Origin: Marivivens aquimaris
Lineage (GTDB): Bacteria > Pseudomonadota > Alphaproteobacteria > Rhodobacterales > Rhodobacteraceae
DNA: 64,000 bases
NCBI RefSeq assembly: GCF_015220045.1
Contig: NZ_JADBGB010000001.1
Span: 248,001-312,000, forward strand
Direction: 5' to 3'
In this document: positions 33,688 through 38,167 of the stretch, piece after piece
How the letters are laid out: each line of letters starts with the position of its first letter
Numbering within the stretch: position 1 is the stretch's first letter
Program-made: the position numbers and the translations under genes
The notes under the pieces: model-generated
Databases searched by the model: none
The model's input: the letters and a program-made list of their open reading frames with translations, nothing else
What the model was told of the DNA's origin: nothing

Positions 33688-36591
33688 TTAGCCCAGAGCG
33701 GCGTCACAGCGGGCGCAGACGCCCTCGTGCTTGTGCGTGCCGACGTCGGGCAGGATCTTCCAGCAGCGCTGGCACTTCTCGCCTTCGGCCTTTTCGAACA
33801 CGACGGCCACGCCTTCGACTTCGCCCATACGGTAGGCTTCGGCCGGAGCGGCGTCGTTGGTCAGCTCGATGCCCGAAGTGATGCACAGATCGTCGAAGGT
33901 GACGGTCTTGAGCGCGGCGAGTGTGTCTGCATCGTCAACGTGAACGACCGGCGCGGCCTCAAGCGAGGCGCCGATGACCTTGTCGCGGCGCTGTACTTCG
34001 AGTGCGGCGGTCACGACACGGCGGACCTTGCGGATCGCGGCCCACTTGGCGGCCAGTTCGGGATCGAGCCATTCCGAAGGGGTCTCGAAGAAGTCCACGA
34101 GGTGAACCGAAGCGCCTTCTTCCTTGTGGCGCTCGAGCCAGACCTCTTCCATGGTGAAGGCGAGGATCGGGGCGAGCCACGTCGTCAGGCGCTTGAACAG
34201 GATGTCCAGAACGGTGCGCGAGGCACGACGCTGGAGCGTATCGCCATCGCAGTACAGGGCATCCTTGCGGATGTCGAAGTAGAACGCGGACAGATCGACA
34301 GTCGCGAAGTTGAACAGCGCTTGGAACACGCCTTGGAAGTCGTAGGCGTTGTAGCCTTCGCGTACGACCTTATCGAGCTCGGCCAAACGGTGCAGGACCC
34401 AACGTTCCAGTTCCGGCATGTCAGCAGGCTCGACGCGGTCGGCTTCGGTGAAGTCGTTCAGCGAACCGAGCATGAAGCGCATGGTGTTGCGCAGACGGCG
34501 GTAGCTGTCGGCAACGCCCTTGATGATCTTATCACCGATGCGCTGGTCGGCAGTATAGTCGGTCTGGGCGACCCACAGACGCAGGATGTCGGCACCGAAT
34601 TGGTCGATGACTTCTTGCGGAACGATGGTGTTGCCGAGCGACTTGGACATCTTCATGCCCTTTTCGTCGAGCGTGAAGCCGTGGGTCAGTACGCCCTTAT
34701 ACGGCGCACGGCCCTTGGTGCCGCAAGCCTGAAGCATCGACGAGTGGAACCAACCGCGATGCTGGTCGGTGCCTTCGAGGTAAAGATCGGCGATGCCGTC
34801 AGCGGCACCATCGGGACGGTCGCGCAGAACGAAGGAGTGGGTCGAGCCGGAGTCGAACCACACGTCCAGAACGTCGAACACCTGATTGTAATCGTCGGGG
34901 TTCGCGTCGCTGCCAAAGACCTTTTCCTTGAAGCCTTCTGTATACCAGACGTCAGCGCCTTCGGCTTCGAACGCTTCGCAGATGCGGGCGTTGATGGCTT
35001 CGTTGCGCAGCAGAAAGTCCGGATCGGTCGGCAGGGTGTCTTTCTTGACGAAGCAGGTGAGCGGGACGCCCCACGCACGCTGGCGCGAGAGAACCCAGTC
35101 AGGGCGTGCTTCGATCATAGAATAGATACGGTTGCGGCCGGTCTGCGGCGTCCACTTGACCAGTTGGTCGATAGAGGTCAGCGCGCGTTCGCGGATGGTC
35201 TTGCCGTAGGTGTCCTGACCGTCGCCGACTTCCTTGTCGATGGCGGCAAACCACTGCGGGGTGTTGCGATAGATGACCGGAGCCTTCGAACGCCACGAGT
35301 GCGGGTACGAGTGCTTGAGCTTCGCCTTGCCGAACAGCGCCTTGGTGTAGGCCATCTGCTTGATGTTGGCGACGTTTGCCGGACCTTCCTTGCCATCGGG
35401 CAGGATGATGTGCATTCCGGCGAAGATCGGCAGATCCTTGCGGTAGCTCGAATCCTCGGTGACGTTGTAGGTCATCGGCAGGCCGAACTTCAGGCCAAGC
35501 TGGTAGTCGTCGTCACCGTGCGACGGCGCGGTGTGGACAAAGCCCGTACCCGCTTCTTCGGTGACGTGATCGCCCGGCAGCATCGGAACGTCGTAGTCCC
35601 ATTCGCCATTGGCTTCTTCTGCGCCACGGTAGGGGTGCGCGAGGACCATGCCTTCGAGGGCTTCGGCAGTCACATCGGCAACCTTTTCGAACGCAGTGAC
35701 GCGAACGCCCTGCATCACGCTTTCGGCCAGCGAGTTGGCGAGCAGAACGACTTCACCAACGGTCGCTGCTGAGTGCTCGTGCACTTCGGTCACTTTGTAG
35801 AGGCCGTATTCGATGGTCGGACCGAACGCGACGGCGCGGTTCTGCGGGATGGTCCACGGGGTGGTGGTCCAGATTACGACACTGAAGTCTTCGCCCGATA
35901 CCTTCTCGCCGCCCGAAACCGGCTTGAAGCGCACCCAGACCTGATGGCTGGTGTGGTCGTGGTATTCGACCTCGGCTTCGGCCAGAGCGGTTTTCTCGAC
36001 AGGCGACCACATGACCGGCTTCGAGCCCTGATAGAGCGTGCCGTTCATGAGGAACTTCATGAATTCTTCAGCGATCACGCGCTCGGCGTGGAAATCCATC
36101 GTGAGGTACGGCTGCGGCCAGTTGCCGGTGATGCCGATACGCTTGAACTCTTCGCGCTGGATGTCGACCCAGCCCTCGGCGAACTTGCGGCATTCCTGAC
36201 GGAAGTCGACGACGTTCACTTCGTCCTTGTTCTTTCCCTCGGCGCGGTACTTTTCTTCGATCTTCCATTCGATCGGAAGGCCGTGGCAGTCCCAACCCGG
36301 AACGTAGCGCGCGTCTTTGCCCATCATCTGCTGCGAGCGGACGATGAAGTCCTTGAGAACCTTGTTCAGCGCGTGCCCGATGTGTAGGTGGCCGTTCGCA
36401 TACGGAGGGCCATCGTGCAGGATAAACGGCGTGCGGCCTTCTTTTTCACGCAGGCGATCGTAGATGCCGATCTCGGCCCAGCGGGCCAGCCATTCGGGTT
36501 CGCGCTGCGGGAGACCTGCGCGCATCGGGAAATCGGTTTCCGGCAGGTTCAGGGTGTCTTTGTAGTCGACTGCTGTGGTGTCAGCACACAT
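33688..36591 (-). CDS. ileS: Isoleucyl-tRNA synthetase
   Basis: 967 residues. Class I synthetase that charges tRNA-Ile and edits valine. The ATP-binding HIGH motif is [14 protein letters not shown] (about residues 59-72) and KMSKS is [10 protein letters not shown] (about 645). The editing domain lies between them, and the C-terminal zinc module is [11 protein letters not shown] ... CARCD. Start ATG 36591 has CCAAGGATCC upstream. The roughly 138-base leader in front contains an Ile-rich mini-ORF and a hairpin, described separately, so regulation by isoleucine charging is likely. Confidence 0.96.
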
Positions 36592-36663
36592 GTCAGGGGG
36601 ATCCTTGGATAGGCTGTGTCACTTCAAATACGGTGGGGCGGCGCGGTAGGCATACGCCATTGG

Positions 36664-36691
36664 CCCGGCGGCTCAATCTCAGAGCGCCGGG
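36664..36691 (-). promoter_or_regulatory. Hairpin in the ileS leader, overlapping the leader-peptide stop
   Basis: CCCGGCGGCTC and GAGCGCCGGG pair over 10 bp with one bulged G around loop AATCTCA. On the minus strand the ascending arm lies in the last codons of the Ile-rich mini-ORF and its TGA is at the loop edge. A ribosome stalled on the Ile codons or released at the stop would change this fold. It has no T run, so it is not a simple terminator. Confidence 0.6.
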
Positions 36692-36729
36692 TTAATAATT
36701 CGAATAATGAAGTGCGCCACGTAGAACAT
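36679..36729 (-). CDS. Putative isoleucine-rich leader peptide of ileS (16 residues)
   Basis: ATG 36729 opens MFYVAHFIIRIINPAL with TGA at 36681-36679. Four of 16 codons are Ile (ATT ATT CGA ATT ATT), in the leader of the isoleucyl-tRNA synthetase gene. The nearest promoter places transcription start at about 36730-36729, so the peptide would be leaderless, beginning with 5'-AUG. The layout (regulatory codons, then stop inside a hairpin) is that of a ribosome-mediated attenuator. Not tested; a chance ORF is possible but would not be expected to be Ile-rich here of all places. Confidence 0.6.
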   Translation of the reverse strand: MFYVAHFIIRIINPAL

Positions 36730-36736
36730 GCCCGCG

Positions 36737-36765
36737 TATATAGGCGGCAATAAACCAAGGGTAAA
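36737..36765 (-). promoter_or_regulatory. Promoter of ileS
   Basis: On the minus strand TTTACC (36765-36760), a 17-base spacer, then TATATA (36742-36737). Seven bases later comes the A of the leader-peptide ATG (36729). Four of six matches to consensus in each box and ideal spacing. Confidence 0.6.
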
Positions 36766-36934
36766 CCCGCATCAGAGGGCAACTTTCAAAAAGCCGTCGG
36801 GGTATCTTGGAGCGTGCCGAACGGCGCGCGATACCTGCTTGGGTCACACTTTGCGCAAATGAGCAGATATGAGGCGCACTGCGAGCCCGCGCAAAATTCT
36901 AGGCAGAACGCCGGAAAAGGCTTATCCGCGAGGC

Positions 36935-38167
36935 ATGGCACGCATTGTTCCGCTTTCCGAAGCACATCACCTTCCTCTCTGGCGCCAACCCCGTTCGCTG
37001 CTGTTTCTCATGGCTATGGCCATGCCTGTTGCGTTCAACGTGTGGTCCGCGCTGCTTAATAACTTTGTCATCGAAGCCGCCGATTTTCACGGCGAGGATA
37101 TCGGCCTGCTGCACACGGTCCGAGAAATCCCCGGCTTCCTTGCGATAGGTGTAATCCTCGTTCTGTGGGTCGTGCGCGAACAGAAGTTGGCACTGTTTTC
37201 GCTGATGCTGCTGGGCATCGCGACCGGCGTGACAGCTTGGTTTCCTACCTTGGGCGGCATCCTGATCATCACGCTGCTGTCCTCTATCGGCTTCCACTAT
37301 TACGAGACCGTCAACCAGTCGCTCCAGCTTCAGTGGATCGAAAAGGAGAGGGCTCCCCAAACCATCGGCTGGCTGCTCGCGGCGGGGTCGGGGGCGACGC
37401 TGGTCGCCTATGGCCTGCTGGTCCTGACGTGGAAGACCTTCGATCTGTCCTACAACTTCGTCTATATGATCGGCGGCGGCTTCACGTTCATCGTGGCCGT
37501 GATCGCGCTCTTCGCCTATCCGCAGTTCGAAGCACCGCATCCGCAGAACAAATCCTTCGTCCTGCGCCGCCGTTATGGCCTCTATTATGCGCTGCAATTC
37601 ATGGCCGGTGCGCGCCGTCAGATTTTTGTCGTTTTTGCTGGCTTCATGATGGTCGAACGGTTCGGCTTCGAAGTGCACGAAGTGACAGGTCTGTTCCTCA
37701 TCAACCTCGTCGCCAACATGATCATTGCGCCGCAGATCGGCCGATTGGTCCACCATTGGGGCGAGCGCCGTGCGCTGCTAATCGAGTACGCGGGCCTCGT
37801 CATTGTCTTCTCGCTCTACGGCGGGGTCTACTGGTTCGGCTGGGGCGTTGTGCTGGCATCCGCGCTCTATGTCGTCGACCATATGTTCTTTGCGATGTCG
37901 CTGGCGCTCAAAACCTACTTCCAGAAAATCGCCGATCCCAAGGACATCGCGCCCACCGCAGCGGTCGCATTCACGATCAACCACATCGCAGCCGTGTTCC
38001 TCCCTGTGTTGCTCGGCCTGTTGTGGATGTCTTCGCCGATGTGGGTGTTCCTGCTGGCGGCGGGGATGGCTGGCACTTCCTTCTGTCTGGCGCTTCTGAT
38101 ACCCCGCCATCCAGAACCGGGGCGTGAAACCGTGTTTACCCGACCGATTGCCGCCCCCGCTGAATAA
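36935..38167 (+). CDS. Major facilitator superfamily transporter
   Basis: About 410 residues with 12 predicted membrane helices (first at about 21-42, LLFLMAMAMPVAFNVWSALLNNFV). I placed the start at ATG 36935 (MARIVPLSEAHHLPLW), though ATG 36869 is also open in frame and neither has a strong ribosome site. Sequence such as REIPGFLAIGVILVLWVVREQKLALFSL does not point to a substrate I recognise. Ten bases after its stop prmA begins, so they may be co-transcribed. Confidence 0.83.
   Translation: MARIVPLSEAHHLPLWRQPRSLLFLMAMAMPVAFNVWSALLNNFVIEAADFHGEDIGLLHTVREIPGFLAIGVILVLWVVREQKLALFSLMLLGIATGVTAWFPTLGGILIITLLSSIGFHYYETVNQSLQLQWIEKERAPQTIGWLLAAGSGATLVAYGLLVLTWKTFDLSYNFVYMIGGGFTFIVAVIALFAYPQFEAPHPQNKSFVLRRRYGLYYALQFMAGARRQIFVVFAGFMMVERFGFEVHEVTGLFLINLVANMIIAPQIGRLVHHWGERRALLIEYAGLVIVFSLYGGVYWFGWGVVLASALYVVDHMFFAMSLALKTYFQKIADPKDIAPTAAVAFTINHIAAVFLPVLLGLLWMSSPMWVFLLAAGMAGTSFCLALLIPRHPEPGRETVFTRPIAAPAE

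Follow-up and report, generated by a model that had tools for sequence, protein, structure and literature searches.

The window (the whole 64,000-nt stretch of DNA analysed here) carries ileS on its minus strand, preceded by a compact leader region whose features are collected in Table 1. We take the product of this gene to be isoleucyl-tRNA synthetase from a signature motif of this enzyme. Read along the minus strand, the leader ORF is followed by hairpin A, hairpin B, a spacer, AAGGA, and ileS, whose ATG stands at 36591. The leader ATG (36729–36727) lies 7 nt after TATATA, the four isoleucine codons of the ORF are arranged as ATT ATT CGA ATT ATT, and the leader TGA occupies 36681–36679. An earlier note on this DNA had described TTTACC-N17-TATATA, a gap of 7 nt, and a 16-codon ORF with four isoleucine codons before ileS, all of which can be read directly from the sequence. 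It had also described a single 10-bp hairpin at 36664–36691 that contains the TGA; the coordinates and the stop codon within the hairpin (in its loop, as we read it) are right, whereas a bulged base splits the stem into 7 and 3 bp, and a second hairpin, at 36640–36658, had been missed.

Table 1. Features of the ileS upstream region in the window
Feature	Position	Strand	Basis and remarks
Putative promoter	36737..36765	-	TTTACC 36765-36760, N17, TATATA 36742-36737; putative start at leader ATG
Leaderless 16-codon leader ORF MFYVAHFIIRIINPAL, TGA	36679..36729	-	Sequence, family conservation, frame test
Constant core CGA-AUU-A (Arg and Ile codons plus next base)	36696..36702	-	AUU 36699-36697; family and other families
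Hairpin A, leader stop codon in loop, stem starting after 5 nt from AUU	36664..36691	-	Covariation in alignments A1 and A5
Hairpin B (GGCGU / GCGCC plus inner pairs)	36640..36658	-	Covariation in A1
Shine-Dalgarno-like AAGGA of ileS	36602..36606	-	Sequence; aaGGAC in family consensus
ileS, isoleucyl-tRNA synthetase (967 aa), presumed regulated gene	33688..36591	-	Signature motif, homologues

By itself the window sequence is weak evidence for a regulatory element, because its folding is unremarkable (the 138-nt leader has a z-score of -1.23, its fold being equalled or bettered by 18 of 200 shuffles) and no promoter is called at the leader by a generic sigma-70 pattern scan. Chance becomes unlikely in view of the ORF, frame, and covariation found across the family, described below, and of a covariance model of the leader (R1) that returned one match, the ileS leader site, when run against the whole genome of origin at E<=10.

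Of the 394 family genomes, 391 encode a homologue of the first 190 residues of IleS at E<=1e-30. We assembled 195 ileS upstream loci from the family, 35 from searches, 80 from listed best matches, and 80 named loci, with some species represented twice. An ATG-started leader ORF with the peptide pattern I-[ITSMV]-x-P-[ASVGT] was present in 195/195; the loci were chosen by ileS, and the pattern presupposes the spacing, yet none failed it. A first pattern had missed seven of the 195 (L068, L119, L141, L143, L159, L161, and L195), and the relaxed form matched all. Immediately 5' of the ORF lies a TATA-like stretch in 194 of the 195 loci, and a TATAN box falls 6–12 nt before the leader ATG in 192, with 153 at 7–8 nt. 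We also applied a frame test that makes no use of the peptide pattern. Among 166 non-redundant family loci, 161 were testable, and in 160 of these the first ATG after the TATA box is in frame with the AUU of the core; control ATGs further upstream are spread 88/81/77 over the three frames. The proposal of a leaderless, conserved leader peptide is thereby borne out.

The constant part of the leader is short. In all 170 distinct family peptides the key isoleucine codon (position 0) is ATT and the following base is A; the third codon after it is CCG in 169, and the arginine codon before it is CGA in 164. At the nucleotide level, AUUA followed by four bases and CCCG occurs in 194 of the 195 loci. 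The run of isoleucine codons, which the earlier note had treated as the key part, is not constant, the number per peptide ranging from 1 to 7 (mode 4) with only 1 or 2 in 24 of the 170. That the isoleucine codons are under selection is nonetheless apparent at position -3, where 135 of 166 loci have a codon beginning with AT and a single one of these is ATG. Among the 170 distinct peptides this position varies synonymously (ATC 76, ATT 57, ATA 6), and the presence of all three isoleucine codons beside a lone ATG points to selection for isoleucine and not for one codon.

At four of the ileS upstream loci CGA is replaced while AUUA stays: L119 and L143 have AGC, L159 has GTC, and L161 has ACC. 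L119 is from Loktanella and L159 from Yoonia, and another Yoonia locus, L140, retains CGA. These four loci offer a natural test of what CGA contributes. We also considered programmed frameshifting at CGA-AUU and rejected it. The +1 frame stays free of stops over 70 nt or more in 116 of 166 loci (92 +/- 6 in shuffled sequences), and the stop in the +1 frame of 50 of the 166 means that frameshifting is not required.

The constancy of AUUA also bears on RNA processing. RNase E prefers to cleave at RN↓WUU, to which GA↓AUU conforms, and CGAAUUA could be a site of this type beside a protecting hairpin, with leader translation guarding or exposing it and the message beginning with hairpin A after cleavage. 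An A+U stretch does precede a GC hairpin here, and AUUA is nucleotide-constant in 170 of 170 distinct peptides, beyond what codon choice explains. Processing alone leaves unexplained the conserved, synonymously varying isoleucine codons upstream and the recurrence of the element before isoleucine-pathway-like genes described below, and we regard it as an improbable account of the whole.

We examined the hairpins in an alignment (A1) of 80 sequences drawn at random from 164 usable family sequences, with the window's own sequence kept. Across hairpins A and B, 94.5% of cells are paired, 11 of 17 pairs have changed on both sides, and double-change cells number 81 as opposed to 22.5 in shuffles; none of 500 shuffles reached the observed value on any of five measures. 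The compensatory changes that had been proposed as a check are thus found in both hairpins. Of the 7 pairs of hairpin B, 6 show one or more changes of both partners; the hairpin alternates across the family between GGCG/CGCC and GGUG/CACC, and its conservation is not obvious in our reading of ileS loci from other families. The spacer between AUU and the foot of hairpin A measures 5 nt throughout A1 (80 rows) and alignment A2 (41 rows), with no indels. A further alignment, A5, has 76 rows, includes other families, and was aligned to the covariance model, which favours structure; here hairpin A has 96 double-change cells against 32.4 in shuffles and 90.5% of cells paired against 79.9%, whereas its count of doubly changed pairs does not exceed that of shuffles (6 versus 5.5; the observed value is reached in 258 of 500).

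Of the five column pairs that covary most strongly in A1, four lie within A or B, and the fifth (columns 23 and 59) is a non-standard pair. The latter columns are the bases flanking hairpin A, where G stands with A in 51 of 80 sequences and other bases stand mostly with C, as if lengthening of the hairpin were avoided. The strongest covarying pairs of A1 revealed no helix that would compete with A or B. The 3' arm of A could pair with the 5' arm of B over 4 bp; this is too short to count as a trp-like 2:3 helix and is not among the strong covarying pairs. A search for pairing between the leader and the start of ileS found none. The earlier suggestion that stalling switches hairpin A is therefore unsupported.

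In classical ribosome-mediated transcription attenuation, a stalled ribosome would favour an antiterminator, and otherwise a terminator would halt RNA polymerase before ileS. Regulatory codons stand before the cognate gene as this mechanism would have it, a U-run follows hairpin A in a few loci outside the family (for example L282, L233, and L297), and a cysS leader of Rhodobacterales is presumed, in the part of the report available to us, to act in this manner (PMC8632094). However, our pattern scan of 36540–36900 detected no terminator-like site, in agreement with the earlier note, which had found no classical U-tract terminator, and a U-rich tail is rare in the family, following A in 6 of 165 scorable loci and B in 6 of 151. 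The strongest covariation, moreover, falls within A and B, and the only alternative pairing, between A 3' and B 5', is short. With no terminator and no competing helix found, classical attenuation is unsupported, and we consider it unlikely.

The core extends beyond the family. Within the order, model R1 at E<=0.01 matched 146 genomes out of 149, every one of the same family, and missed three; a second, weak match turns up in a few. At E<=0.1 it gave matches in 48 of 289 genomes of the class, and in 9 of 26 checked loci these stand before ileS of other families. We then gathered 102 ileS upstream loci outside the family, spanning 60 families and taken from the listed best IleS matches in the 289-genome sample (266 with a match), leaving out L271, L275, and L280, which have no usable ileS start. 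CGAATTA followed by four bases and CC[CG]G occurs on the gene strand in 37 of the 102, from 22 families, and on the opposite strand in none; CGAATTA alone occurs in 42 on the gene strand versus 4 on the other. The figure of 37 is the stricter count, one of 38 class matches (L356) having been dropped as lying inside a longer ORF. A simple hairpin test was passed by 33 of these 37 loci. The core is absent from 65 of the 102. Outside the family its invariance is in part a product of selection, since there the motif itself served to count or model the loci.

By eye, the short ORFs outside the family mostly end R-I-x-x-P-[AV], sometimes with more residues, and mostly begin 7–9 nt after a -10-like box. 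The isoleucine run is thus, on present sequences, an elaboration of Rhodobacterales; what the families have in common is CGA-AUU-A, the spacer, and hairpin A, in whose loop the stop codon often lies. As far as sequence comparison can establish it, the leader element is real and conserved family-wide, and a minimum of 22 other families in the class have it too. The earlier note, which considered only Rhodobacterales, was too narrow in scope.

A second covariance model (R2), built on a MAFFT alignment with shifted 3' arms and used as the basis of later alignments, placed the element before further genes. At E<=0.01 it matched 87 of 289 genomes of the class. In a phylum sample it matched 38 of 249 genomes, all 38 of this class, the non-class share of the 249 not being given. 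We inspected 71 R2 sites, made up of 30 returned loci, L404, and 40 sites fetched for lying away from ileS. The gene in the stretch is ileS at 23, a small protein at 39, and neither at 9; within the 40 picked off ileS, the corresponding numbers are 2, 29, and 9.

The small protein carries the designation PF26954 and is named acetolactate synthase small/regulatory subunit or ACT domain protein, and elsewhere hypothetical; its identity rests on these source-given names, on PF26954, and on one weak NCBIfam match. We obtained no Pfam match among the 15 members of its alignment (A4), and against solved structures the best hits have E=0.26 and 0.98, the latter being an acetolactate synthase small subunit. 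In the window's own genome it has no match at E<=1e-6; its profile weakly matches an ORF there (L452) that reads as ilvH by eye.

The neighbouring genes add to this picture. At L368 the gene after the small protein begins like threonine ammonia-lyase IlvA over the first 160 aa, which were the part compared and score below the curated cut-off set for the whole protein, and at L418, among the 29, citramalate synthase (above its cut-off) comes after the small protein. Two genomes of family f128 (G702 and G600) have the small protein directly before ileS. Among the nine sites with neither gene, L413 has the element twice before a threonine ammonia-lyase-like gene (below curated cut-offs), and small kinase-like genes follow at L447, where AAA_33 is shown, and at L414, by eye. 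One of the nine, L441, is by eye a false match inside rho, and the rest are L424, L428, L442, L445, and L449. The core also stands before a small kinase-like gene at L409, by eye. Tandem copies of the core, about 200 nt apart before one gene, occur at L385 (1319–1368 and 1501–1548) and at L413 (1457–1504 and 1658–1704). At L457 and L475 a doubled CGAATTA, encoding Arg-Ile-x-x-Arg-Ile, precedes a small acetolactate-synthase-subunit-like gene.

We also picked loci by homology to the small protein. CGAATTA lies within about 250 nt upstream in 21 of 30 such loci (at L466 without the CCCGG foot) and in 8 of 15 from genomes that did not supply A4; contig ends spoil the coordinates of some of these loci. 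Among the 39 small-protein loci found by R2, we scored 30 for overlap between leader and gene, setting start codons by a Shine-Dalgarno rule of thumb. In 15 of the 30 the leader ORF extends through the hairpin to a stop 14–35 nt inside the next gene, with CGA 73–79 nt from the start codon; the remaining 15 leaders stop short of the gene. The link to isoleucine suggested in the earlier note is reinforced by recurrence before genes of, or like those of, the isoleucine pathway.

This distribution also allows two readings in which the leader peptide has no sensing role to be weighed. In one, the RNA would be bound by a protein or tRNA, as in IleRS autoregulation, a T-box-like element, or a riboswitch, and the ORF would be incidental. 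A near-exact RNA core of fixed geometry is what such an element might look like, and the ligand might be IleRS or an ACT-like protein that binds isoleucine. The frame conservation and the selection for isoleucine codons indicate, on the contrary, that translation matters. The small protein cannot be a general ligand, because it has no match in the window's own genome at the threshold given above. Rfam has no match, T-box or other, in 36300–37000 up to E=1, on which we rejected a T-box for the ileS leader, and none in 10 related loci at gathering scores. We judge a binding element very unlikely. In the other reading, the upstream ORF would play no part in regulation and the region would be an ordinary conserved 5' UTR. 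According to the portion of PMC4833913 available, many short leader genes are believed to be free of regulation by amino acids, and in the available text of PMC4117421 a Caulobacter ileS leader CDS serves merely as a negative control in a motility assay. The depth of conservation, the covariation, and the recurrence before isoleucine-pathway-like genes run counter to so plain an upstream ORF, which we find the least credible of the alternatives.

We think it likely that the element is an isoleucine-responsive ileS leader working through the ribosome that translates the leaderless peptide, and isoleucine sensing by a ribosome-stalling leader is well supported by the comparative data. Transcription would start at the leader ATG, so that a ribosome could load at once and translate the leaderless message while it emerges. 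In ribosome geometry, a hairpin foot at about +12 from the first P-site base lies near the mRNA entry; the 5-nt spacer would set the foot of hairpin A there when CGA occupies the P site and AUU the A site. Hairpin A would then delay the ribosome exactly at the isoleucine codon AUU, making this step dependent on Ile-tRNA; the additional upstream isoleucine codons of Rhodobacterales would raise sensitivity. Low Ile-tRNA would lengthen the stall with A (and B) folded, and with sufficient Ile-tRNA the ribosome would open hairpin A and terminate in its loop. This difference in stalling is predicted to raise ileS expression under isoleucine shortage.

How the stall is read out may differ between genes. 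Since the leader ORF in the window ends inside hairpin A, about 90 nt upstream of ileS, an output other than start-codon overlap is needed there. Candidates are mRNA cleavage at AUUA, message stability, and Rho; RNase E cleavage could thus serve as the output step of the stalling leader, and the C-rich, G-poor spacer after hairpin B (30% C, 17% G) is weak evidence for Rho, which it would suit. Because the leader ORF overlaps the next start codon in one branch, control there, before acetolactate-synthase-subunit-like genes, is probably translational: a ribosome passing the isoleucine codon would cover the start codon, and a stalled one would leave it free.

The same arrangement before ileS and isoleucine-synthesis-like genes in many Alphaproteobacteria suggests that the element is probably a widespread isoleucine sensor. 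We propose more tentatively, and with doubt still outweighing confidence, a class-wide isoleucine regulon of Alphaproteobacteria built on a hairpin-gated, single-codon AUU sensor (CGA in the P site, the hairpin 5 nt on) that dispenses with a terminator and has a gene-specific output, at the RNA level for ileS and by occlusion or coupling for the acetolactate-synthase-subunit-like gene. If this is true, many Alphaproteobacteria would have an isoleucine sensor common to the synthetase gene and to biosynthetic-branch genes, with a codon-level design lacking the usual terminator.

A comparative study of attenuation in aminoacyl-tRNA operons was reportedly made by Lopatovskaya et al. 2010. Given that study, priority is unsettled; in the open PMC literature, as far as its text was accessible, we found no isoleucine leader regulating ileS in Proteobacteria. 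Set against the trp/his/ilv type, the ileS leader has a translated leader with cognate codons, as judged from frame conservation, whereas an intrinsic terminator with a U-tract before the gene was not found in the window, and U-rich tails are rare in the family. The trp, his, and ilv leader-peptide attenuators of proteobacteria use regulatory codons, which the ileS leader shares; it differs from them in that no terminator/antiterminator was found and in that its common feature is one constant codon and not a run. T-boxes bind tRNA directly, without a peptide, and the ileS leader has no Rfam T-box match. They resemble it as RNA leader control of ileS, known from Actinobacteria in the part of the report seen (PMC1262725). 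The leaderless start is common to the trpL/peTrpL leader of Sinorhizobium, described as leaderless in the available part of PMC10117765.

Small CDS constructs in Caulobacter crescentus, also an alphaproteobacterium, include an "ileS leader CDS (CCNA_03934)" in the accessible text of PMC4117421; going by its name, it is likewise a small CDS in the leader of ileS. If the two are homologous, our reading would give the Caulobacter leader CDS a function. Also close is the uORFC-8-2 motif before cysS in Rhodobacterales, which, in the part of the report available, comprises an upstream ORF with Cys codons, two stems, and a terminal U-run (PMC8632094). The word ileS does not occur in the main text of that report. 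The two leaders are alike in having a short upstream ORF with tandem cognate codons, an aminoacyl-tRNA synthetase gene, the same order, and two stems. The isoleucine codons, the gene ileS, and the lack of a U-run led us to reject membership of the ileS leader in uORFC-8-2 as the motif is there described. In uORFC-8-2, so far as its description was available, the U-run is terminal and the Cys codons lie inside the first stem, whereas the ileS leader is without a U-run, its isoleucine codon ends 5 nt before the hairpin, and its core extends beyond the order and to several genes.
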